Positions 779-43,409 of a stretch of DNA of 48,715 nucleotides are shown here, in pieces (the stretch's first letter is position 1; each line of letters opens with the position of its first letter). The position numbers and the translations under genes are program-made. The stretch comes from a candidate division FCPU426 bacterium (GTDB lineage Bacteria; Oederibacteriota; JAAXVQ01; JAUVAV01), in contig JAUVAV010000026.1 in the NCBI GenBank assembly GCA_030591525.1, positions 1 to 48,715 of the forward strand. Reading direction: 5' to 3'. Below the pieces are notes generated by a model that searched no databases, was not told the origin of the DNA, and worked only from the letters and a program-made list of their open reading frames with translations.

Positions 779-3700
779 ATGGCTGAACAAGCAAGCATCA
801 ACGAAGTAAATCAGAGGGAAGAACTGGTGTTACACCGGGGATTAGTCTTGCTGGGAGGCCTCCTGACCGGCGCCGGGTTAACCATGGCCTTAGGCTTGCG
901 CCTGCTCCTGCCGCTTCCGGAAGCGGCCGGGATGGTCGGCAAATTAACCCTGGGAAGCATTCCAGCCCATGAAGGATTAAAAGCCATACTAATCGTAGCC
1001 GGAGGAATTATCGGCGTGGTGGCAGCGCAATGGTTCTGGCTTATATTGGCCCGGGGTCAGCGCCGGTTATGTCGTTTGCCTTTGTCCACGGCCCTGAAGC
1101 GAGCCAGCGTGCCGTTTGCGGTTTTTTTGCCCCAGATCACTTATTTATACCGGGGGGAACCGGCCATGTTCCCGCCTTGGCTGGCGTTTATCGGTCTATC
1201 GGCCGGTTTTATATTGTTGGCATGGTTGGAGAGAGGTGATAAACGAAAAATATTTTTTGCCCATCCCACTGAAGCCGGGTATAGTTCCGCTGCTTTATTT
1301 ACCCATGGCGGAGTAATAGTTTTAGGCGCCTGTCTGGGATGGTTCCTGCAATCCTTGCCCGCTTTTTCCTTCCCGGTGCTTATGGGACTCTGGTTTCCGC
1401 TGGGAGTTGGAATAGGAGTATGGGTGGCTTCTTTGCTCCTGGCCGCGCTCTGGGGTCTATATGATACCAAACATACTTTTGATCAGATTTATCTGGCAAT
1501 AGCGATAGCGCTGCTGCCCTTGGCGCTGCTGCCGTTGCAAACCATCGGATGGTATCAATATCTGGACCCGGCCCAGGGCAAAATATTAAGCGTGAAAAAG
1601 CTGGCATGGCTTCCGATTAGCTTGATCAGTCTGGCGGGAACTTTAATCCCGGGATTGTTGATGCTTAATTTCTGGCGGCTCCGCAGCCAGGCAGTTGAAG
1701 GGCCGCCGGCCTGGGAAGAATTGTTCCGGGCGTTAATGCTGATTGCCGCCTTTCCAATTATTATTTACGCCGTCGCCTATTGGCCGGCCGGCGCGGCTTT
1801 TAACCAAACCGCCCTGGCGGGTCCACTCGATTTTTTCCACGAAGGCGAGAGCCTGAGTACAGCCCAAGCCATGCTGGCCGGCAGATTGCCTTTCAAGGAA
1901 ATTCTCCTGCGGCATGGATTTCTATCGGATGCTGTAAGCGGTTTAGTGGCCGTCAATTGGATGGGAGCTTCCTTGGAGTCTTATCGCTTCCTTATGGTTC
2001 TGTTGGCTCCGCTGGGACTGGTGGCGATTTACCTTTTGGCCATATTCTGCCTGCCTTGGGTCTGGGCCGTGCTTTTAAGTTTGGTGCTGCTTACCGGAAG
2101 CATAGGCACTATTCCCGGCACACGATTTTTTTTCGCCCTGGTGAGTTTTATTTTCACGCTCTACTATATCCAAAAGAGAAACTGGACGGCCTTGCTTTTC
2201 TCCGGGCTGTTTACGGCCTTGGCGCTCATTGCTTCCTTTACCGCGGGATTGACGGCCCTGGCCGGGCACCTGGTACTCCTGACCGGCTTCGCTTTTTTTA
2301 TTCCCGGCAGCCTCCTCAAGGAACGTCTGGCCGGGCCCGGGATTTACCTGGGAGCCCTGTTGGCGGGTCTTCTGCCCTGGTGGCTTTACCTGGCGATGAG
2401 CGGAACCCTGGGCGCTTACTTTCACAATTTTATCTGGGTGCTTACTACTTATGAAACTATTTTTGGATTACCTTTGCCCGGAATCGGTCCGAACCCGGGC
2501 CTGGGAAAAATTTTATACTTCCTCACCCCGCCGCTGATTATAACCCTCGGCGGCCTGTATCTGCTGAATTCCCTGAAAACCGTGCGGGAGCATGGTCTCC
2601 CTTGGAACATATTGCTGCTGACCGCTTTAACGGGAGTGTTCTGGATACGCTTTCTGAAGCGCAGTGATTTTTCTTTTCTGCAAGAGGTATTGCCGATAGC
2701 GGCCATGCTAACCGCTTTTTTCCTATACCGGCTTACCGCGCGCCAACTTTCTTTGCGGGGCTTGGTTTTCCTGGCCTTATTACCCGCGCTCTTTATTCCG
2801 CGGGACGGCCGGCTTGATTTAACCGCCCTGGCCGGCGGTTTCGGAGCCAAGAATCAGCTCTCAGTGGAGGGAATGGCCACCAGCGGGCTGGAGTCCATGG
2901 GGGATGTCTACCTGCCGGAAAAACAGGCTCGCGGACTGGAGCAAATCGCCGCTTACCTGGATGAAAGAGTAGGCAGCGCGGAAACCTTTTTTGATTTTTC
3001 CAATAGGCCTTTATTGTATTTTCTCGTACCCCGGCGTCCGGTAGTCAAGTCTTTAAGCACTATGACCATCGCATCTTTCCAGCAGCAGTTGGAAGCTATA
3101 CGCAGTCTCTCTCTCTCTGCCCCTAAAACCGTGGTATGCCGGAGCCGTTTGGCCGGGCCTGATAATCTTGACGGTATCCCGGTGGAAGTACGGCAATATG
3201 CGGTTTCCGAGTATCTTCTTCAGAAATTTGTGCCTGCCGCCCTGATTGCAGACACGGTGATGCTTTCACCCGCCCCCAAGGGGGTGAAAGCCAATCAGCA
3301 GGCCACAGCTGCCATGCGAAGAGAGACAGATCTGAAAAGTCTGCCCTATAATTGGGGTCGTCTGCAAAAGTACGCTCCGGTTCAGGGCCGGAAGGCGGAT
3401 GAATTTTTGCTGGCAGGTGGAACGAAGGCACTGGAGCCGGCCGGACTTACCGCGACCGCCAGAGGAGAAGGATTGGAAGTCGGACCGGCCGAGGGCCCGC
3501 TTAAACTTCGGCTGGTTTGCAATTCCCGGAAGATTAAAAAAGCTAATGTTCTGGTGATGGATTTAAAATCCGGGCCAATGCTGGATGGAAAGACCGCGTG
3601 GATTTCATGGGGCAAAGCTTCATCCCTGAGCCGGCTGAGATTTACCTTACAGGGAGATAATCAAACATATCGTTACGTATTCCGGATAGGAGCTTTGCCA

Positions 3701-3835
3701 TCCTGGGTTTACGCCGGCCGGATTGACCGGCTGCATTTGGAACTTCCCGGAGGGGGATGGACCTGGGAAGGGACCTCGCTTATGCGGATTGAGGATATTC
3801 CGGAATTGAGGATGAGCGAGGTTGCGGACAAATAA
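779..3835 (+). CDS. large polytopic membrane protein, GT-C glycosyltransferase-like
   Basis: A 1018-residue protein with more than a dozen hydrophobic segments in the first ~670 residues, then a soluble C-terminal part. After several helices comes the phrase DFFHEGESLSTAQAMLAG with LRHGFLSD (residues ~350-385). An acidic/His loop of this kind after the first helices is typical of GT-C enzymes, which transfer sugars from lipid-linked donors on the outer face of the membrane. Residues ~880-1010 look like a beta-sandwich ending (PSWVYAGRIDRLHLELPG), as in carbohydrate-binding modules. ATG at 779 follows GGGAGGGAGG at a good distance. No neighbour names the acceptor. It could instead be a membrane protein of another fold, so the function is inferred. 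Confidence 0.55.
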   Translation: MAEQASINEVNQREELVLHRGLVLLGGLLTGAGLTMALGLRLLLPLPEAAGMVGKLTLGSIPAHEGLKAILIVAGGIIGVVAAQWFWLILARGQRRLCRLPLSTALKRASVPFAVFLPQITYLYRGEPAMFPPWLAFIGLSAGFILLAWLERGDKRKIFFAHPTEAGYSSAALFTHGGVIVLGACLGWFLQSLPAFSFPVLMGLWFPLGVGIGVWVASLLLAALWGLYDTKHTFDQIYLAIAIALLPLALLPLQTIGWYQYLDPAQGKILSVKKLAWLPISLISLAGTLIPGLLMLNFWRLRSQAVEGPPAWEELFRALMLIAAFPIIIYAVAYWPAGAAFNQTALAGPLDFFHEGESLSTAQAMLAGRLPFKEILLRHGFLSDAVSGLVAVNWMGASLESYRFLMVLLAPLGLVAIYLLAIFCLPWVWAVLLSLVLLTGSIGTIPGTRFFFALVSFIFTLYYIQKRNWTALLFSGLFTALALIASFTAGLTALAGHLVLLTGFAFFIPGSLLKERLAGPGIYLGALLAGLLPWWLYLAMSGTLGAYFHNFIWVLTTYETIFGLPLPGIGPNPGLGKILYFLTPPLIITLGGLYLLNSLKTVREHGLPWNILLLTALTGVFWIRFLKRSDFSFLQEVLPIAAMLTAFFLYRLTARQLSLRGLVFLALLPALFIPRDGRLDLTALAGGFGAKNQLSVEGMATSGLESMGDVYLPEKQARGLEQIAAYLDERVGSAETFFDFSNRPLLYFLVPRRPVVKSLSTMTIASFQQQLEAIRSLSLSAPKTVVCRSRLAGPDNLDGIPVEVRQYAVSEYLLQKFVPAALIADTVMLSPAPKGVKANQQATAAMRRETDLKSLPYNWGRLQKYAPVQGRKADEFLLAGGTKALEPAGLTATARGEGLEVGPAEGPLKLRLVCNSRKIKKANVLVMDLKSGPMLDGKTAWISWGKASSLSRLRFTLQGDNQTYRYVFRIGALPSWVYAGRIDRLHLELPGGGWTWEGTSLMRIEDIPELRMSEVADK

Positions 3836-3837
3836 GT

Positions 3838-3859
3838 GGGAACGGTCGCGACCGTTCCC
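3838..3859. repeat. perfect 22-bp palindrome just after a stop codon
   Basis: The sequence gggaacggtcg is followed directly by its reverse complement, starting two bases after the stop of the membrane protein gene. It could form a hairpin that ends or protects the transcript. No T-run follows, so a Rho-independent terminator is not supported. Confidence 0.6.
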
Positions 3860-3887
3860 TGCAAAAGCGGGAGAATGACAGCAGTTT

Positions 3888-3983
3888 CCCCCTTTTCAAA
3901 AAGGGGGATTAAGGGGGATTTTTTATATAAAAGCGGGCGTTTTATTGATTAAATCCCCCCGGCCCCCTTTACAAAAGGGGGAG
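3888..3983. repeat. inverted repeat with CCCCCTTT / AAAGGGGG arms
   Basis: The left arm (3888-3922) contains cccccttttcaaaaaggggg and gattaagggggat. The right arm (3951-3983) contains aaatccccccggccccc and aaaagggggag. The arms are imperfect inverted copies of about 33 bp separated by ~28 bp. This is a common style of dispersed non-coding repeat in bacterial genomes. It fills most of the gap 3836-4046 upstream of the phosphate transporter. Confidence 0.7.
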
Positions 3984-4046
3984 AACGACTAAAGTCCGGA
4001 AAGCGCTTAGTTTGCATTCTTAATAGTTCCTTAAGGAGAAAAAAGA

Positions 4047-5699
4047 GTGGTTGTAAATATTGTATTCGGTCTTATCGGCGGTCTGGGGCTTTTTTTATTC
4101 GGAATGAAGTTTCTCTCCGATGCCCTGCGTAATGCCTCCGGCGAGCGAATAAAAAAAATTCTCGGTTTTTTAACGAAAAATCCCGTCATAGGATTAATCA
4201 TGGGTGCCGGTATTACGGCCTTGATCCAGAGCAGTTCCGCTGCTACGGTGATAACCGTGGGAATGGTGAATGCCGGTTTGATCACGCTCAAGCAGGCGCT
4301 CTCAGTAATACTGGGAGCGAATATCGGCACTACGCTTACGGCCTGGATTGTGGCTTCCATGTCTATTTTTAAAATACAACTTTACGCCATGCCGGCGATT
4401 GGGATTGGTTTTTTCATGATGAATTTTAGCCGTTCCTTCCGGTGGCGGCAAGCCGGAGAAATATTCTTCGGGTTTGGTATTCTCTTTTTCGGTTTGATAA
4501 TTATGAAAGATGCCACTCACCCGATATCGCAGCATCCCGGCATTAAAGACTTTTTCCTGGTTTTCTCTCAATATCCCATACTTGGGGTATTGGCCGGGAC
4601 GCTTTTTACTATTATGGTACAATCCTCTTCGGCCACGGTGGCAGTGGTTCAGGCTCTGGCCTGGCAGGGGCTCCTGGATTTTAACGCGGCGATTCCCCTT
4701 ATTCTGGGCGACAACATCGGCACGACCATTACGGCCCAACTGGCCAGCCTGCAAACCAACCTTACCGCCCGGCGGACTGCGATGGCGCATACCTTGGTAA
4801 ATGTTATCGGCGTAGGCTACATTCTGATTTTTGTCTACAATGGCTGGTATGCCCGCTTGATTGAATGGCTGCTGCCCGGAGAGATAAGTACTTCCAATAT
4901 CATGGTGCACATTGCGCTGTCTCACACCGTATTTAATGTTTTCAATTCCTGCATATTATTTCTTCCCCTGATTAAATCGCTGGAAAGACTGGTAATCTGG
5001 ATTCTGCCGGCCAAAATGGGAGAGGATCCCCAGCGTCCCCAATACCTGGAATCGCATCTCTTGGAGGAGCCGGCGCTGGCATTACAGCAGTCCAAAAAAG
5101 AAATTGTGCGCATGGCCAGGTTGGCGGAGACAGCGGTACAGGATGTCTTTACGGGATTTTTCCAGCGCGACCAAAAAATATTGGAACGGGTGGGAGAGAA
5201 GGAACAGGCCATAGATACTTTTCAGCATGAAATCACGGCTTATTTGGTAGAGCTTTCGCAGCGTAATTTATCCACCGAAGAAGCCCGCCAGCTCCCGGTT
5301 TTGATGCATTCCGTGAACGATTTGGAGCGTATCGGCGACCACGCGGTTAATTTGGAGGAACTGGCGGAACGATATATACGCCTCGAAATGAAACTCAATG
5401 AACATGCTATTGAGGAGTTAAGCAAAATGGCCGAGCAGATTAGAAATATGCTCCAGGAGGTTATTCAGGCCCTGCAGCATAATAATCTGGATGCCGCCCG
5501 GCATATCCTGGTTCAGGAAGAAAGTTTGGACCGGCATTACGAGCAGCTTAAGGAACGCAATTTGGTTCGCTTAAATCAGCGTCAATGTCAGCCCTTGGCC
5601 GGCATTGTATTTGTCGACTTTATTAGTAACCTGGAAAAGATAGGAGATCATATCACTAATATCGGTCAGGCGGTTTTAAAAGCTTACCAATGGAGATGA
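4047..5699 (+). CDS. Na/Pi cotransporter family protein with C-terminal PhoU-like domain
   Basis: A 550-residue integral membrane protein with two copies of the Na/Pi-cotransporter repeat, each with the signature QSSSA (residues ~60 and ~191) and a following glycine-rich stretch (LGANIGTTLTAW; LGDNIGTTITAQ). About eight to ten hydrophobic segments fill the first ~330 residues. Residues ~345-545 are helical and PhoU-like, with two ERIGDHAVN / EKIGDHITN copies, the metal-site helices of PhoU. The family (YjbB/NptA type) moves phosphate using the sodium gradient, often as an exporter; PhoU-like tails are thought to tune activity. The start is GTG at 4047 with AAGGAGAA seven bases upstream. No pst or pho genes lie next to it. 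Confidence 0.9.
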   Translation: MVVNIVFGLIGGLGLFLFGMKFLSDALRNASGERIKKILGFLTKNPVIGLIMGAGITALIQSSSAATVITVGMVNAGLITLKQALSVILGANIGTTLTAWIVASMSIFKIQLYAMPAIGIGFFMMNFSRSFRWRQAGEIFFGFGILFFGLIIMKDATHPISQHPGIKDFFLVFSQYPILGVLAGTLFTIMVQSSSATVAVVQALAWQGLLDFNAAIPLILGDNIGTTITAQLASLQTNLTARRTAMAHTLVNVIGVGYILIFVYNGWYARLIEWLLPGEISTSNIMVHIALSHTVFNVFNSCILFLPLIKSLERLVIWILPAKMGEDPQRPQYLESHLLEEPALALQQSKKEIVRMARLAETAVQDVFTGFFQRDQKILERVGEKEQAIDTFQHEITAYLVELSQRNLSTEEARQLPVLMHSVNDLERIGDHAVNLEELAERYIRLEMKLNEHAIEELSKMAEQIRNMLQEVIQALQHNNLDAARHILVQEESLDRHYEQLKERNLVRLNQRQCQPLAGIVFVDFISNLEKIGDHITNIGQAVLKAYQWR

Positions 5700-21600: not shown

Positions 21601-24600
21601 AGTTTTTACTCAGCGACATTAAAGCGCTGATTGATATTATGGACGCGATTTATGAAAAAATCGAAAAGGACGGCGAGTTTACTTTTGTCCTTTCAGCAAA
21701 GGATGATCCGAGAATTTCGGACCAGCTTTATTCCCATACTAACGATGGTATGGCTGTGTATAAGGAATATCAGGACGCTGCGGTTTGTGATAAGGAGATG
21801 TTAGATTGGATCAAAAGTCTGGACCCGTCAAAAATTCATATTGATTGTATGCATGGGGCGGCCTACAGCACATTGACCAATTTTTTCAAAACCGCCGGAC
21901 TTGAAGATTTGATCGGGAAGCTGGATTGGATGCATACTGAAGAAAAGCCGGATTTCGGGGGGATTGGCAAAAGCTATGAAAATCCCAAAACCGGCAAAAG
22001 AGAGCCATATGATTATGGAGCAGATGCTACCCAAGTTTATGAAAAGAAAATGCCTGATGGCAAGGTCATACAATACTTCCCAGTGTTTTGCACTGCTGAT
22101 TATCAGGAGAGATTTGCCCAAAAGCCCATAGGGGATATTGTTTTAAATACTGATATGGACCATGATCGTTTAGTAGCTAATCAAATTTTGCCTAATAATG
22201 AAGAGACCAAAGAATATTTGAAAACATTAGGAGTGCCTTATAATGTGATTAACGAAGATAAAATCCTCGCGGTTTTTCTTCCGAATAAGTTCTTTCATTT
22301 ATTGCAGGATATGAATTTTATTCGTTTGACCGAGATGATGGAACAAGGAAAAATCGCTAAAGAAAGAACTATGGTAGTGCTAAAAACCCTGGCTTCAACC
22401 CCGGCAGTTGATAAATGGGCAGCGAAGAAAAAAGCCGAAGGCTATAAAATAGAGGTGATAAATACGGCTGTGGGATTTGCCAAATTGGCAAATATTATGT
22501 ACCGGGCAGAGGCGCAAATGCGCGATCATCCTGGGGAGGATGTGATTATTGAGGATGCTTCCGGCAGTAGAGTTAATATTGGCCCAAATCCAATAATTCT
22601 GGCTGCCTGGGAGGAGAGCGGCGGGATTATTGTTGGTACTACGAAAGAAATCAAGGATATTTCTGGAAAGTCATTTCTCGCCTTAAGAGAGAAAAGCGCG
22701 ACTGAGTCAATCCTGCTTAGTCTGGCCATGATTTCAAAACTGCAAAAGGAAAAGGGAGAGCCTGATTTAAAGACATATTTAAAAGAAATATACGATGATG
22801 CTGAGGTGGATTTTCCCCTGGATTTGCGTCTGGATAACAATTTATATATTCCTGACACCACCGCGGAATCAGTTGAACAGGAAAAAGCCGGCAATGAGAG
22901 AAAAAACCGGATTTTTGGCGCGTATCTCTCAATTGTAATTGCGTATATGAATGACCAACTGGTACTTGCGGATGCGCAGAATATTTTGCGGGATATTTTC
23001 GATCAGGAATTTCAAGCCAGAAAGAAGCAGGGGACCTTAGATGATGTATTCATTAAGCGCTTTCAACAGCTGAATTTTGAGTTGCTAAAGGATATTAAAT
23101 TTACCGGCGATGGCGTGATATTTGTTTTTGAAGAAGCCGGCAAGCAATGGCATATTCTATTCAGACCCTCAGGCACTGAACCCAAGCTTAAAGCCTATGG
23201 TTTTGGAAGTGAAGCTGAACAATTAACTGATTATACCTGGGGCTTTGCATTTAATGAAAATACTGCGGGTAAGCTGCCGGAAACGTTTACTAAAAATAAA
23301 GTTCTGAAAAAGCTCTGGGGAAAAGACGGAGTAAAAGCAGTGGAAAAGGCCATGCGTATGCAAGATGCCTGGGAATTGTATGGTCAAGTAGTTGACACGG
23401 CGGATTTGGATGCGGTCGAGCTGAAGGAGCTACAAGAAAACTTATTAAAAATTGAATACACTCCGGCGGATGATCATTTGCCAATGATTAATGACCGGCT
23501 TGCGGAAATCGAATGTAAGCCAATTAGTTTGGATTTTACTTTTTTTCCGCAGGCTATGTCGCAAGAAAAAATTGTTGAATTGCTGGAAGCTGTGCCGGAA
23601 GCAGTATTTGAGCAGCTGGGACATGAAAAAGCGGAGGTTATGGCTAAACAGCAAGGGACGCCTTTTGATCTGGTGGCAGCCGGTTATGCTCGGGCTCTCA
23701 CAAAAGTCATTCCGGTGTTAATTGCGGAACTGGAGCAGGCAAAATCGGACGGAGACGAGGAACTGGTAAAAGAGACACGGGAAAAATTGGATGGCATGCT
23801 CGCGGTAGTGTCGGATACCACCCTTGCAACCTATGACCGCATGGCAGAGAAATATACGGAATTGCGGGGCGCAAAGCCCACGGGGAGAGATCTGCTTGAA
23901 CTTAGCAAATTATTAAAATATGCCAGAAAATTAAGGCCTGAAGGTTCAAAGGAAAAGGTCAGAATTCTTGATGTGGGCACAGGAACAAGAGACTTACTCT
24001 GGTTCTCGAAAATCGAGGATATCCATGTCGTGGGCATTGACATTGCGCAGAAGGTGGTCGACTCAATTCACGCAATAAATTCAAAATTGAATGTTTTGAA
24101 AATGGATATGCATAAACTTAGATTCAACGATGAGAGCTTTGACGTCATTAGATATAACACCGTCTTCCACCATACTCCTATTGTTGATTCCCGGCAAGGA
24201 GCCGACGTGGTATTACGCGAGGCGCGTCGTGTGCTCAAAAAGGACGGAGGGCTTTATATAACGGTAAAAGCGGAAACTGATGAAAGACACGGTTTTATGG
24301 GTCTGGACACTGGGGAAGGACTGGGAATACGCTATTACCAATTTTATAACCAAGAGATGCTAAAGTCTCTCTTGGTGCGGAATGGTTTTTTAGTAAAGAA
24401 AATTGAGGAATATACAGACGATAGGGGTGAAAAAAACCTGATTGCTTTTGCCAGAAAAAAAGAGGTTGCGCCGGAACTGGACAGCCAGATAAAACAAGTT
24501 GCTGAAATACTAAATGCAGCAGAAACCGATGTTCAGGCCGCCTTGGTCGGGAGCATGGATACCACCGAGGTGCTGGATAATTTCGCGGAATCAGTGGGCA

Positions 24601-35810: not shown

Positions 35811-35888
35811 TTGGACAATAATAAATTGGTTGTTTTCGGCTGGAAACGAATCGAGAGAAGAATACACGAAAGGAAACCTGGAATAATA

Positions 35889-38800
35889 ATGTACCCCCAG
35901 TTCGCCTCCCTGAGCGCATGGCATGCATCCGGACGTAAATTATGGGTCAAGAGCATTGCTCTCCTGGTGGCCCTCAGCATGGTTTTGCCCTGCCTGGGTT
36001 GGGCCTTTGAGCCTGGAGTCTTTCCTCGGCCGGCCGGGCAAGTTATGTTCAATAAACTGCCGGTCGAGATTTCTTCCAAACTTGGAAAAATCACTCACTC
36101 CTTCCAGGCCGGAGAGCGTCTGGTAGTGCATGTCCAGGATCTGCACTGCAATTACGAGGTGCAGAACAATATCGCGGGCATGATAGACGCCCTGGCCCAG
36201 AGGCATGGGTTGCGTCTGGTGGCAGTGGAGGGCGCCTCCCTGCCGGTAAATGTAAGCAAGCTCTCCACCTTTCCGCTCGATTCAGTAAAAAAAGAGACCG
36301 CGCACTATTTAATGAAACAGGGCAAGATTACCGGGGCAGAGTTATACGCAGCCACTGGCAAGTACCCGGTATGGCTGGAAGGCATTGAGACCGGGGAATT
36401 GTACGAGAATAATTGGTCTGCTGTGATGAAATTCCTGAACAACGAGAGCCAGGGTTTTATTTTTGATTTACGCGAGACCCTGGAGGAATTAAAACCCGGA
36501 ATATACAATCCGGCGCTGACAGAGCTGGACCGGAAAAAGACGGCTTTCCGCGAGGGCGATCTGTCTTTGGTGAAATACAGCGCCTGGTTATACCACTACG
36601 CGTCGCGTGGCGGGGAAAAGCTGGAAGACTTTACAAATTTGCGGGCATACCTGTCTAAGCGGAAGCCGGTTTTTGCCGGCCCAGTGGAGGCGGACGATTT
36701 GTACCGGGAGCTCGAAATCCTGGACCAGCGTCTGCGTTCCGGAATGTATACTGACGCTGCCCAGGAAAAAATGGACCGGCTCCAGCATAGGCTGGATATT
36801 ATGGAAAAAATGCTTAATATTTCGGCCGCGCCCGAAGATTTGGCGCAATTTCGGGCTGCTCCGGAAGAATTTAAAATCCAGCCCTTTATGGATTTTATCG
36901 CGCGCCATGATGAGTTGGGGGAATTCCTGTTGGACGCCGAGGTATCCGGGTTGGATACTTACATGGAGCAGGTAAGGGGATTCTACCAGGTGGCGGACCA
37001 TCGCAGCCGGGCCTTTGTGAGTAATGTCATCAGCCGGATGAACCGGCGTAACACGAATATCGCCGTACTGGTAACCGGCGGGTTTCATACGGAAATAATT
37101 CTCAAGGAACTAAAGGAGCAGGGTATCTCGCATATCTGCGTGAAGCCGCGCCTGGAGCATCAGGATATCGCGAATCCCTATTTCTCCCTACTGCGCAACC
37201 GGCGTACGCCGCTGGAAAAACTGCTGGCGCAAAACCAGAATATCCTGGGACTGAGGCCGGAATGGCCAATGGGTTCAGCAGCCGCGCCAAGAGACCCGGT
37301 ATTTTTCCGCCTGGTCGATCTTAGTAATTATTTAGGCACCCTGGGGCAAGGTTTTAAGGATGGACTAAGCCTGGCCGGGCTGCGCCAATTCTGCGAAAAA
37401 ACCATGCGCGCCTATCCGCAGAGAAATCCCGGCATAGCCCCGGTATGGGCAAAAGTAAGAAAAACCGCGGCCGGTCTGTTTGCGCCGTTTACCCCAGGCC
37501 TCTCAGTGGTGATTCACAGGGCCGGTTCCTCTGTGCGCCTGAAAATTACAGCCCTAGAGCGTCTGGTACTGGCCGGGCAGCCGGCAATGCTGGTCAAAAC
37601 CGGCCAGGCGGATCCGGAGAAAATGCTGGCAGCCGGACAGCTGGGAATCGGTGGCCGAATAATTGATACTATTAAAAACACTGCCTCTCTATTTGCCGCG
37701 CGGCCGGCCCGGGCCCGCGCCGCGGTCTTACTCCTGGTGCTGGCATCCATAGGCCTGGTGGGCGTTAATCTATTAGTCGCCTGGATATCCGGCAGCGGCC
37801 AGGCAATGGACCTTCCGATGTACGCTCTATTCGGAGCTATAGTTCCCGATGGCATAGTCCAATGGTTTGAAAGAATAAGCGGTATAGCTAAAAGAAAAGA
37901 GTTTGAGGAAGTAAAAAGCGACGCGAAAATAGTTTCCAACCAAGTTGATGAACAAATAAGCGGGCTGGAAAATGTTGGAAATATTAAGACGGAAAAACTG
38001 GATGAAATATATACGGAATTAAAAAAGCGGGAGGGACCGCTTGAAAAGATAGAACAGACTAATGCTGATTATTCAAGCTTGGATAATAATGATATTTTCT
38101 ATACCAAGGTTGCATCGAAAATTAAGGATATCGGGGAAGCAAAGCAGATAATCAGCAAGGAAATAAATGTAACCCGGCTTGAAAAAATAGATGAGGAAAT
38201 AGATAAGATTAATAAGCGTCTGGAAGCTGAATTGGAATATGCTTACTTGCTGGATACAGGAATATGGGAAAATATAAGTAAGAAATTAAACGCAATTAAA
38301 GAGAAGATAGCGGTTTTAAAAGAACTGAATATTACTACTAAGCAGAACATAAAAATCTTAGAGGGCTTTACTGAAACTGTTGCGGATGAAGCGGAAGGGA
38401 TTTCAAAAGCAATAGCGGATTTCAAGAACATTCCGGATGAACACCTAATGATATTTGTATGTTGGTATTTAAACGGCGTGTATTCGAAATATGATGATGA
38501 AAAACGGAAAAATGATGAGGTTATAAACCTTGCGAAAGAAGTCTCCGATATTTATGAAAATCCTAATGAAGATTATAGGGAAAGAATAGATTCATTAGTA
38601 TCCAGATTAAGGAAGAAACATAAATATTCTGAAGTTTACAGCCATGCGTTGAGGGTTTGCAGCACCAGGGGCTTTCAAGAAACTGATAACTTGCCGGCAT
38701 ACGTTCAAAACGCGGTTGGCCTGATTGAAAAAAGAATTCTTGGAATAGAGCATGACGATAAGCTTGCAGAGAAAGCACTTCTGTCTGAAGAATTCCAGGC

Positions 38801-41800
38801 GGCTCGGAAATTGATTGAGGATTTAAAAAAGAAGGAACCGACTTTTGGAATGCTTGAGAGCGATAATAAAGATGAAATGGAAAAATTCAGGAAATTAAGC
38901 AGCGGCGGGGTGGAAGCATCGGAAAAATACTTGAGAGATCATGCGGAGAAACATTCTAAGGATATTTTAGGTAATGGGAACAAATTTACGCCGGCGCAAT
39001 ATAAAGAAGTTATGGATTTATTAAAAGGAAATGCTGATGCTTATTTTGTTGTTTTTACGAAACATCAAAACGAAAAAGGAAGGGTTAGATGGGATAAAAG
39101 ATACTGCTTCTATGATATGGAGAATAAAATCGTATTGAAGCTCCGGATGTTTAATAAAAGTAAATATAATTTTGTTACTATGCATAATCTGAAAATAGAC
39201 GATCTGCGAGAACAGTTGGGCCGGGATAGAAATTATCTCGTGGCTGAGACCGAGGAGTTTACCCGGGAGTGGGAAGAAGCAATAACTTTATCAGACGAAA
39301 AACGCCGGGGCGAAGACGTGGCTATTCAAGGCGGCTTAAAGATAATAGCTCCCTTTGTGTACGAAGATGAAATGAAGCAGGATATGATAGAAAAAATTAT
39401 TGAAGATAAAAAAGGCTGGAGGGCGCAGGCGCGCGGACTTGATCTCGATAGGATAATAAGCAAAACCGGGGAAAAAATCACAGCCAAGTTTATCTTTGAT
39501 AAAGAGGGAAGATTGCCCAACGGTGTATGGGCAGCTAATTTTACAGATGAAGATAAAAACCTGGTTATTATTATTGGCAAAGAATTGCTTGGAAATGAGG
39601 CTGAAATGGAAGAAGCGATATTTCATGAGGCCAAGGAAGCTGAGTTTATGAAGGAACGCACTAAACGGATGCAAAAAAACCAGTTGACCGATAAAGCTAT
39701 AAAGGGATTCCGGAGACGGGCGCATATCCGGGCAGCGGCGCTGCAATCTATAGTGTTTGCGGGTAAAGATGATAAAGGTAATATAAATAAACCAACCCCC
39801 CTGCATCAGAGAATACTTGAGGAAATGGTGCCGGCCCGGCTTAAAGAAATAATTGAAGAGCAGAGAGCATACCAGGAAAAAGCCATAAAAAAATATTGGG
39901 GCAAAGAAAATATTAGCCAATTTATTGAATACACAAAATATGAAGCAGTATTAAGAAAAGAAGCAAAACGGATTCTGGCTGAAAAGCAACCGGCGCAAAC
40001 CCAAGCAGTTGGCGCCGAAACCGGCCCGGGGCAACAAAGCAATCAGCCGGCGCCGTCAGAGGTAAAAGATCCAAACTATCGTATTAAAACCAGTATGGTT
40101 ATTAATCGGATAAAGGTTGATTTTAGGATGCAAAAGGGCGCAAAAATTGAGAGAGGGACATTGGCCCACTTGCGGACCGGTTTTTATGAAGTTGCGCATG
40201 CGCTGCTGAAAGAAGATGGTCTGCTCTGGGACTGGATTGAGGATGATCATTATCTTACGGCTTTGCTTACAAAATTGAATATAGATTACCATAAACATGG
40301 CGATAGAAGAATAGTGTTTAAGGTTTCTGCAAGAGGTTTGGATACTTTTGTGGCTAAATGGGTATATCGGCCCGGAGAGGCGCGGGATCTGGACGAGCAA
40401 GTGCGGGATATGTTGAAAGTATATACCCAAACCAAGAGACTTTACGGCGATGATAAAATAGTTGTGCCTTTGACCGGAGATCATACTGATCGTGTATATG
40501 TTGAGGAATACGTGGATGGTTTGGAACGGGATGAATTAGTTGATCTTTTTGTTAAACAAGAGAAGAGCTTGAGCGAGATTGTCCGGATGGAAGCCTTTGG
40601 TTTGGCCAGGGTTTGGAGAACTTTCCGGGATGAGTTTGGCAAGGGAATGATTTTTACTGATCACCACGGCCGGGACGTTTTATTCGTAAAGCATGGAGAT
40701 GGATACCTGGCAAAGTTTTTTGATTTTGAATATGTTGAAAAAGGCGTTTCTCCCGCGAAAATGATGGCTGTCTATATGGATCCAAGTCAAACGAGGACTA
40801 TGGTAAGTATCAATCCTAAAAAATATGCCAGAGATTTCTATCAAGGCATTATTGAGGCCCGGGGAGAAGAAGGACTGAGATTTCTTGAAGAAGCACTTTT
40901 TGAAAAGCCGGAATTGCCCGAGCTTAAAGAATTTATTAAAGAGTTGCAAAAAGAGATAAGTATATCCGGCAGGATTTTCCATCACCAGAAAGCCTCGGCC
41001 TCTCCCCTGGGTATGATGGCAATTACGCTCCCGTTGCTGGGAGGATACGGCCTGATGAATATTCTGGCCGCCCAGGGCGTGTTTAGTCCAACCGCTGCCA
41101 TCGGAGCGCCGGTGCTTTTTTCACTGCCCCTGGCTTTAATCCCCCTGTTGATAATCTATTCATTAGTTCTGGCCAGAGGCGCGAACCTGCCGGGAAAAGG
41201 TTTGATGCTTGCGGGAGTTCGGCTTGTAAGGTCATGGAGCCAAACCCTGGGAATATCCGGAGTGGAAAGAGCCGTTGGCCAAGAAATAGTCCGGCCGGAT
41301 AAGGTCGTAGAGAATGCCCTGACCGGATTCAGGGAAGAGGCCGGCCGTATCCGGTACAATCTACCTATTTTATTCCATCAGCTTGGGTGGCGGGATGCCT
41401 TTCCCAGGATGAGAGAGTTATGGATAATGGGGCAAGCCCTGGGCCGGCGTGTGCTAATGGGCGCGACCGCGGCGAACCGGGTGGATATATCAGACCTGGA
41501 AACATGGTTTAATAATTCTCCGGTAGTGCAGGATTTAGTGACTAGGGCCTGGAACGCGGATGCGGCTGAGCTGAGGCACAAGGGCGAGACCGGGCAATTG
41601 TCATTTCAAGCCTTGTCCCGGCCAAAAGCATTATGGGAGAAAGGGCCCGGGGCACTATTGATGGGGCAGCGCCTTACAGACCCGAAAACCGGCAAAGCAG
41701 TGGTGTCTGTGCCCGTATCAATTATGAGCGTTCTCACTCAGAACCAGGCTTGGAATCCGGAGCAATACCAACAGGCGGAAGAGCTATTTAAGCTGATGCT

Positions 41801-43409
41801 CTCGTTTCACCGTCCGGGACATGACAAGCAGATAATCAAGCATGAAAAACTTGGTTCGCAAAGACGGATAACCAGGACCCTGATGCCGGGCAGAAAAGAG
41901 ATAAACGGATTGCTGAACGCGATCCGGGCCCTGGGCAGGAGAATAAACCCGGCTGATTATTACCCAGAGCAGGAGAGTATAATCCTGACCGCAGCGGATG
42001 TGTATCGCATATACGTTTATTGCATGAAAAACCTGGGCCAAGCAAATTTTGCCCATGCGAAGCTGGTAGAGCATTTCGCCGGTCTGCTGAATAGCGGCGC
42101 AGGACTGAATTTGAGAGCGTTCTCAGCCGCGGCCAAGGAAGTGAAAGCAGAAGGAGACCCGGTTATAACAGCTATGCAGGGCCTGGTCGCGGACGTGGAA
42201 AATATAGAGGATGAGAATTTGCAAAAAGTAATAGCCAGCGGACTGATGGGAAGCTTGCTGGATTTAATCTCTTCAAAGCCTGGGGAAGTATTGACTAAAA
42301 GCAGTGTTGCGTGGGATGACAAATCCTTTACCGTAACCGGCATACCCAAAAAAACAGCCGCGATAATGCGGGACGCCCTGGCCAAAGTACGGACTAAGGG
42401 TATGACTGAGAACATGCAAAACCTGGTAGAGGCTTTAATATTTGTTCTGAACGCCCAGAGCGGGCAGGGGCTTGAGCAGGCCGCGGAGATTGAGGCCGAA
42501 GCCGGCAGTGCATTGGCTGAGGCCAAGCTGAGGCTGGAGAAGAGCATGATGCAGGCAGAGGTGCTGGGCACTGACTCATCCGGCCGCAAGGTGCGATGCG
42601 TGTGCGCGGGGCTTGAACCGGTAAAGACCGGGCTGGGTGAGATAGGCCGGCTGCTATTACTGGACAGCAACTCGAGCAGTATGAATATAGAAAAAATCAT
42701 AGCCCAGGCCATAAAGGGCGAGTACGGAGTCCTGGGATTGTTTGATAACTTCGCAATAGCGCCCCAGCCGATAGCGGCCGCGGGCATAACGAGGAATCGG
42801 TTGGCAGCCCGGCTGCTAAGCGCGGGGAAAAGCGGTTATGTGCCAATCAGCGTAAGCAGAGTCCTGGATGGCATGGTGCGCAAAATCGCGCCGGTCTACT
42901 GGGTATGGCAGAACCTGCAAGCGAGCGGCAAAGGATTGCCTGAAAATTCGCGTCTCTCTAACCTGGGTGGTATGAGTCTGGACCAGTGTTGGAAATGGCT
43001 GAACAGTGGGGATCCGAAGGCAGAGACTATGCGTGCCATGCTGCATTCCGCCGATCCCAGACACGAGGCCCTAATGGCCAGAACCTGGCTGGGCCTGATA
43101 TATCCGGCCCGCCTGGCGGCTGACCAATCTGTCCAGATTATACGTAATAAGGCAAGACAGATGCAGGAACTGAGTTTTGTATCACAATTCTTTACCAATA
43201 TGACCAGTGTGTTTACCGTGCTGATCTCGCGAGGAGATGTGAAGCTGGCTGTGCCAATAGCCATGTTCCAGGAAGTTGGCTTTAAAGGAATTATTGGAGC
43301 TGTGGCGGATAAGATGGAAAAAATGGGTATTGAGGTAAGATATGAGATTATTGACCTGTTCATGCGCCAACGCCAGCGCCTGTGGAATTCCGTAAACATA
43401 GCGGCCTAG
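35889..43409 (+). CDS. giant exported protein 3 (2506 aa), constant ends with coiled-coil and kinase-like core
   Basis: ATG 35889 is preferred; the in-frame TTG 35811 lies in the MITE target duplication and would add 26 unrelated residues. The ribosome-binding site is weak (AAAGG ~15 bases upstream). N-module: WHASGRKLW, h-region ~21-38, cleavage near A39, HVQDLHCNYE (H81) and GGFHT (H400). The core has an AT-rich coiled-coil section (~660-900), a region with FHEAKEAE (H1246, E1247, E1250) after GKELL, a Pro/Gln/Ala linker, then a kinase-like fold: VAKW (K1490), TDHHGRDVLF (D1591, H1593, D1596) and FDFE (D1612), laid out as in aminoglycoside-phosphotransferase/protein-kinase-like folds but with Asp in the usual Asn place. 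Two or three hydrophobic segments follow (~1700-1760). The C-module (~1892-2506) ends NSVNIAA. Confidence 0.8.
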   Translation: MYPQFASLSAWHASGRKLWVKSIALLVALSMVLPCLGWAFEPGVFPRPAGQVMFNKLPVEISSKLGKITHSFQAGERLVVHVQDLHCNYEVQNNIAGMIDALAQRHGLRLVAVEGASLPVNVSKLSTFPLDSVKKETAHYLMKQGKITGAELYAATGKYPVWLEGIETGELYENNWSAVMKFLNNESQGFIFDLRETLEELKPGIYNPALTELDRKKTAFREGDLSLVKYSAWLYHYASRGGEKLEDFTNLRAYLSKRKPVFAGPVEADDLYRELEILDQRLRSGMYTDAAQEKMDRLQHRLDIMEKMLNISAAPEDLAQFRAAPEEFKIQPFMDFIARHDELGEFLLDAEVSGLDTYMEQVRGFYQVADHRSRAFVSNVISRMNRRNTNIAVLVTGGFHTEIILKELKEQGISHICVKPRLEHQDIANPYFSLLRNRRTPLEKLLAQNQNILGLRPEWPMGSAAAPRDPVFFRLVDLSNYLGTLGQGFKDGLSLAGLRQFCEKTMRAYPQRNPGIAPVWAKVRKTAAGLFAPFTPGLSVVIHRAGSSVRLKITALERLVLAGQPAMLVKTGQADPEKMLAAGQLGIGGRIIDTIKNTASLFAARPARARAAVLLLVLASIGLVGVNLLVAWISGSGQAMDLPMYALFGAIVPDGIVQWFERISGIAKRKEFEEVKSDAKIVSNQVDEQISGLENVGNIKTEKLDEIYTELKKREGPLEKIEQTNADYSSLDNNDIFYTKVASKIKDIGEAKQIISKEINVTRLEKIDEEIDKINKRLEAELEYAYLLDTGIWENISKKLNAIKEKIAVLKELNITTKQNIKILEGFTETVADEAEGISKAIADFKNIPDEHLMIFVCWYLNGVYSKYDDEKRKNDEVINLAKEVSDIYENPNEDYRERIDSLVSRLRKKHKYSEVYSHALRVCSTRGFQETDNLPAYVQNAVGLIEKRILGIEHDDKLAEKALLSEEFQAARKLIEDLKKKEPTFGMLESDNKDEMEKFRKLSSGGVEASEKYLRDHAEKHSKDILGNGNKFTPAQYKEVMDLLKGNADAYFVVFTKHQNEKGRVRWDKRYCFYDMENKIVLKLRMFNKSKYNFVTMHNLKIDDLREQLGRDRNYLVAETEEFTREWEEAITLSDEKRRGEDVAIQGGLKIIAPFVYEDEMKQDMIEKIIEDKKGWRAQARGLDLDRIISKTGEKITAKFIFDKEGRLPNGVWAANFTDEDKNLVIIIGKELLGNEAEMEEAIFHEAKEAEFMKERTKRMQKNQLTDKAIKGFRRRAHIRAAALQSIVFAGKDDKGNINKPTPLHQRILEEMVPARLKEIIEEQRAYQEKAIKKYWGKENISQFIEYTKYEAVLRKEAKRILAEKQPAQTQAVGAETGPGQQSNQPAPSEVKDPNYRIKTSMVINRIKVDFRMQKGAKIERGTLAHLRTGFYEVAHALLKEDGLLWDWIEDDHYLTALLTKLNIDYHKHGDRRIVFKVSARGLDTFVAKWVYRPGEARDLDEQVRDMLKVYTQTKRLYGDDKIVVPLTGDHTDRVYVEEYVDGLERDELVDLFVKQEKSLSEIVRMEAFGLARVWRTFRDEFGKGMIFTDHHGRDVLFVKHGDGYLAKFFDFEYVEKGVSPAKMMAVYMDPSQTRTMVSINPKKYARDFYQGIIEARGEEGLRFLEEALFEKPELPELKEFIKELQKEISISGRIFHHQKASASPLGMMAITLPLLGGYGLMNILAAQGVFSPTAAIGAPVLFSLPLALIPLLIIYSLVLARGANLPGKGLMLAGVRLVRSWSQTLGISGVERAVGQEIVRPDKVVENALTGFREEAGRIRYNLPILFHQLGWRDAFPRMRELWIMGQALGRRVLMGATAANRVDISDLETWFNNSPVVQDLVTRAWNADAAELRHKGETGQLSFQALSRPKALWEKGPGALLMGQRLTDPKTGKAVVSVPVSIMSVLTQNQAWNPEQYQQAEELFKLMLSFHRPGHDKQIIKHEKLGSQRRITRTLMPGRKEINGLLNAIRALGRRINPADYYPEQESIILTAADVYRIYVYCMKNLGQANFAHAKLVEHFAGLLNSGAGLNLRAFSAAAKEVKAEGDPVITAMQGLVADVENIEDENLQKVIASGLMGSLLDLISSKPGEVLTKSSVAWDDKSFTVTGIPKKTAAIMRDALAKVRTKGMTENMQNLVEALIFVLNAQSGQGLEQAAEIEAEAGSALAEAKLRLEKSMMQAEVLGTDSSGRKVRCVCAGLEPVKTGLGEIGRLLLLDSNSSSMNIEKIIAQAIKGEYGVLGLFDNFAIAPQPIAAAGITRNRLAARLLSAGKSGYVPISVSRVLDGMVRKIAPVYWVWQNLQASGKGLPENSRLSNLGGMSLDQCWKWLNSGDPKAETMRAMLHSADPRHEALMARTWLGLIYPARLAADQSVQIIRNKARQMQELSFVSQFFTNMTSVFTVLISRGDVKLAVPIAMFQEVGFKGIIGAVADKMEKMGIEVRYEIIDLFMRQRQRLWNSVNIAA

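Follow-up and report, generated by a model that had tools for sequence, protein, structure and literature searches.

In enzymes of the protein-kinase-like (PKL) fold, a lysine positions the ATP phosphates, a first aspartate occupies the catalytic base position, and an asparagine and the aspartate of the DFG motif bind the metal. An aspartate is also able to ligate a divalent cation. According to Kannan et al., each of ten key PKL residues, bar one, can be dispensed with in some family (PMC1821047). Loss of the Lys, the HRD-Asp or the DFG-Asp is the usual ground for calling a pseudokinase (PMC12599244). The giant ORFs of the PVC superphylum (Omnitrophota and relatives) are very large, include transmembrane segments and have few recognisable domains (PMC10066038, PMC12057145).

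The window, which is the whole stretch of DNA analysed (48,715 nucleotides), is an entire contig from a genome of 2.7 Mb. Four giant ORFs of 4433, 2096, 2532 and more than 1698 amino acids lie in tandem on the + strand at 15690-48713, and all four have a 450-600-amino acid N-terminal domain in common. For the version of this domain in the third ORF, giant 3, there are 16 matches within its own genome and 120 within eight genomes of the order, in open frames of up to 9482 amino acids; a search of the phylum's 36 remaining genomes gave none. The C-terminal region of giant 3 and the C-termini of giant 1 and a few further giants are homologous, at about 27% identity. For the middle of giant 3 (residues about 660-1480), no giant in the collection supplied a clear homologue. 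Hydropathy alone was used to locate hydrophobic segments at residues 48-66 and 638-656 and another near residue 1760. Giant 1 includes an embedded methyltransferase domain (PF08241, E 6.5e-13, window 23949-24263, residues about 2754-2858). The features of giant 3 are as follows; residues are numbered from the TTG at 35811, and numbers counted from the ATG at 35889 are lower by 26.

35811..43409, + strand: giant 3, an ORF of 2532 amino acids counted from TTG or 2506 counted from the ATG
35901..37250, + strand: N-terminal domain of about 450 amino acids, common to the four giants of the window
39618..39647, + strand: IFHEAKEAEF, an HExxEA motif upstream of the kinase-like segment
40266..40985, + strand: putative PKL core, about residues 1486-1725, supported by hhalign comparison with PKL profiles and by motif statistics
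40296..40325, + strand: HGDRRIVFKV, putative beta1-loop-beta2 (GxxxxVFKV), resembling QGANKLVFKV of L118b, a PKL domain of another giant
40350..40361, + strand: VAKW, putative beta3 with Lys1516
40497..40520, + strand: YVEEYVDG, hinge-like; the L118b counterpart is YIEEFIDG
40656..40685, + strand: TDHHGRDVLF at the catalytic-loop position, with D1617 at the catalytic-base position and D1622 at the metal-Asn position
40719..40730, + strand: FDFE, with D1638 as the DFG-type metal Asp
41358..43406, + strand: C-terminal region of about 680 amino acids

The motifs VAKW, TDHHGRDVLF and FDFE occur once each in giant 3. The original prediction placed them in kinase-like order at intervals of about 100 and 20 residues, and the same order was recovered with 101 residues from Lys1516 to D1617 and 21 from D1617 to D1638. 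By alignment, the Lys, the catalytic Asp and the DFG-type Asp are all kept. The Asn that is usual, not universal, in PKL domains five residues past the catalytic Asp is an Asp in giant 3 (codon GAC, 40674-40676); the change predicted for this position is real in the alignment, and the residue first reported as D1596, in ATG numbering, is D1622 here. In addition, Phe-Thr stands where His-x usually precedes the catalytic Asp. The assignment of Lys1516 as the beta3 lysine appears less secure, since the N-lobe alignment is ambiguous, and the C-lobe motifs are firmer. Two further kinase-like elements beyond the three motifs of the original prediction, the hinge-like YVEEYVDG and HGDRRIVFKV, strengthen the pattern.

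Profile comparisons support the kinase-like reading. When the segment was aligned by hhalign with a profile of eight PKL domains, L118b included, the match had a Prob of 77.7 and a P value of 1.9e-5, ranked first among the 590 windows scored, and spanned the hinge to beyond the DFE. A second profile, built without the window sequence and without L118b, the nearest look-alike of the segment, from 14 members (11 domains from giants and three from further kinase proteins of the phylum), gave a P value of 7.1e-4, above all 400 non-PKL decoys (best decoy 0.014). The alignment kept the hinge, the catalytic loop and the DFE in register; L118b itself reached 7.5e-7 against this profile. The segment ranked 6th of 588 against a five-member canonical profile alone and scored just -1.0 bits in HMMER with the giant PKL profile. 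The P values and ranks from the first two profiles indicated that the similarity to PKL domains is significant and moderate, not overwhelming. In a local alignment of the segment with L118b, a comparison that carries a mild selection bias because L118b was picked for its weak similarity to the window, the score was reached by none of 1000 shuffles and ranked second among 1296 windows. A profile made of the window segment and L118b produced only two matches among all PDB sequences, both MSK1 kinase constructs (E 0.18-0.26) and with the catalytic loop in register, and no kinase was found in PDB sequence searches with either sequence alone.

Direct searches with the segment alone gave no match in Pfam, NCBIfam or PHROGs and none to a kinase in the PDB; in Pfam, neither APH (PF01636) nor Pkinase (PF00069) matched it at E 10. 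The proposed kinase-like fold was partly supported: the profile searches against PKL domains speak for it, and the segment, which matches neither Pfam family, is best filed as a divergent PKL domain outside both. Searches of 44 genomes of the phylum and of the genome_contigs, viral contig, phage and plasmid collections found no homologue of the segment. A PADLOC match to Csn2 over part of the segment (E 0.0096) was set aside as chance, and a weak phmmer match in L042 was dropped, the ORF being OmpA-like by eye. AlphaFold2 models had a pLDDT of 40 for the segment alone and 44 with an alignment of eight sequences (pTM 0.23 and 0.30), and Foldseek searches with these very-low-confidence models returned nothing significant. 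For much of the domain, the predicted secondary structures follow a kinase-like order, an observation of little weight at such low confidence. Models of this quality neither confirmed nor contradicted the predicted bilobal arrangement, and the fold assignment rests on sequence. The lack of a significant single-sequence match anywhere searched and of a confident AlphaFold2 fold agrees with a rival explanation, in which the segment has a non-kinase fold and resembles a kinase by chance, as part of a rapidly evolving, otherwise unrelated region. We regard this explanation as unlikely, since the profile ranks, the motif statistics and the repeated occurrence of PKL domains in sister giants all speak against it.

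The chance expectation of the motif set was estimated with a pattern consisting of a catalytic loop (N or D), a hydrophobic-hydrophobic-D-F-type element and an upstream hinge. Across 102 long proteins (315,738 amino acids), mostly giants of the giant 3 family plus a few fetched neighbours, it occurred nine times compared with 0.30 expected after block shuffling; as it was composed after the giant 3 sequence and some of the other matches had been viewed, the count is supportive, not a clean test. Six of the other eight matches are recognisable PKL domains and two are apparently accidental. When giant 3 was shuffled 61 times and the Lys was also demanded, the pattern never arose.

Within the order, about 17 PKL domains were located in the variable cores of giants other than giant 3. 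Their carriers are L118, L078, L166 and L168, with two domains each, and L079, L135, L150, L096, L100, L084, L167, L169 and L148; L078 and L150 belong to a single giant of G016, L079 and L167 to another. The domains L118a, L079 (scanned as an isolated domain), L148, L166 and L100 are above the Pfam cut-offs for Pkinase or APH, and the remaining ones are weaker or were reached via iterated profiles. L148, L166, L168 and L169 were fetched through kinase matches, have ends cut by contig ends, and likely belong to the same N-terminal family as giant 3. The catalytic loops of the other giants include HGDMRGDN, HGDLRADN, HGDPRLEN, HGDPHYEN, HGDIQPEN, PHDIHGNN, HGDYHAGN, GIDIRPEN, QIDVRLQN and QIDVNPAN. 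Plainly decayed loops are present in L078b (HGNPSPAQ), L096 (HNAINAGS) and L100 (HTSINSKN), and the corresponding domains, L078 8239-8961, L096 2283-2975 and L100 3006-3698 (- strand), are apparent pseudokinases. The presence of both intact and decayed kinase domains in related giants makes the giant 3 finding look real. More generally, PKL domains turn up repeatedly in the variable cores of these giants, a result that reaches beyond giant 3.

Other features of these giants were recorded along the way. L118, a 2647-amino acid giant of G014, has two different PKL domains (263-1090 and 3293-4141, - strand), one above the Pkinase cut-off and the other recognised by no Pfam model. In L148 (485-4186, - strand) an Mpv17/PMP22 domain (E 1.5e-14) adjoins the APH domain, and residues about 5330-5580 of the L079 open frame, past residue 4933 where the piece scanned with Pfam ended, look like a glucosamine-6-phosphate deaminase by eye. 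The HExxEA motif, possibly part of a metalloprotease-like domain, is matched in seven other giants, sometimes adjoining a PKL domain, and is found upstream of L118b among other places.

Taken together, the data suggest that giant 3 is anchored in the membrane and that residues about 1486-1725, in its variable core, form a highly divergent PKL domain, a reading to which we give a probability of roughly 0.8; a kinase-like fold of the segment is, judged from its sequence, likely. The segment would fold as a bilobal kinase. The domain would probably be located on the cytoplasmic side, a placement derived from the two hydrophobic segments that precede it and the one that follows. It may bind a nucleotide and a divalent metal, with D1622 providing a carboxylate instead of the Asn amide, and would then either phosphorylate a substrate with an altered metal preference or be a regulatory or structural module that responds to nucleotides. 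We consider nucleotide binding reasonably probable and phosphotransfer plausible at somewhat under even odds.

Two versions of the divergent PKL domain can be distinguished. It could be a pseudokinase that kept the fold and lost phosphotransfer, acting as a scaffold, a switch or a relic in a fast-evolving giant. The replacement of the metal-binding Asn by Asp and of His-x by Phe-Thr agrees with this version, as do the residues clearly lost from the PKL domains of L078b, L096 and L100 and the fact that no orthologue was found that shows constraint, such as conservation of D1622. However, giant 3 keeps the three residues whose loss usually defines pseudokinases, and PKL families tolerate change at nearly every key residue. 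This version has nearly an even chance of being correct. Alternatively, the domain could be an active kinase, either of small molecules, like APH or choline kinase, or of proteins, in which the Asp acts as a second metal ligand, a role compatible with the ability of this residue to ligate divalent cations. Both the DFE and the D-x-H at the catalytic Asp look APH-like, and the APH domain (E 7.5e-18) of L148, a fragment of a giant from the same genus, is similar there, with IVHGDYHAGNVLF and VFDWEH at the places matching the giant 3 catalytic loop and DFE. Yet the segment has no Pfam APH match, and a simple Asn to Asp change was seen in FTDHHGRD of giant 3 alone among the giant PKL domains examined. 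Activity of this kind is a tentative possibility, about one chance in three. A broader proposal, that the variable cores of a lineage-specific family of membrane-anchored giants gain and lose enzyme domains, those of kinase fold among them, and that the giant 3 copy is an active kinase with Asp for the metal Asn, is improbable in its full form.

The giants of uncultured PVC-type bacteria are mostly unannotated. Recurrent kinase-fold domains in the variable cores of one such family, intact or decayed, offer a testable biochemical handle on the role of these proteins, and the Asn to Asp variant would offer a test, supplied by nature, of the extent to which a kinase-fold metal site tolerates change.

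The putative PKL domain of giant 3 and its host protein share features with three known systems. In APH phosphotransferases (PF01636 and choline-kinase-like relatives), the catalytic Asp is followed by x-H-x-x-[N/D] and by a DFE-type metal Asp, as in giant 3; in contrast to them, the giant 3 segment lacks a PF01636 match, has Asp in place of Asn, and is embedded in a 2500-amino acid giant instead of being free-standing. Bacterial Ser/Thr kinases and pseudokinases (PF00069; PMC12599244) have the same order and spacing of Lys, hinge, catalytic Asp and DFG-type Asp, and PF00069 domains are present in other giants of the same order, whereas the giant 3 segment has neither a PF00069 match nor an HRD and, unlike pseudokinases, retains all three residues normally lost. 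The giant 3 family, which lies in the lineage that has Candidatus Firestonebacteria as its named member, resembles the PVC giant ORFs in its large size, its transmembrane segments and its few recognisable domains, and differs from them in having its own conserved N-terminal domain and kinase and methyltransferase domains in the cores.
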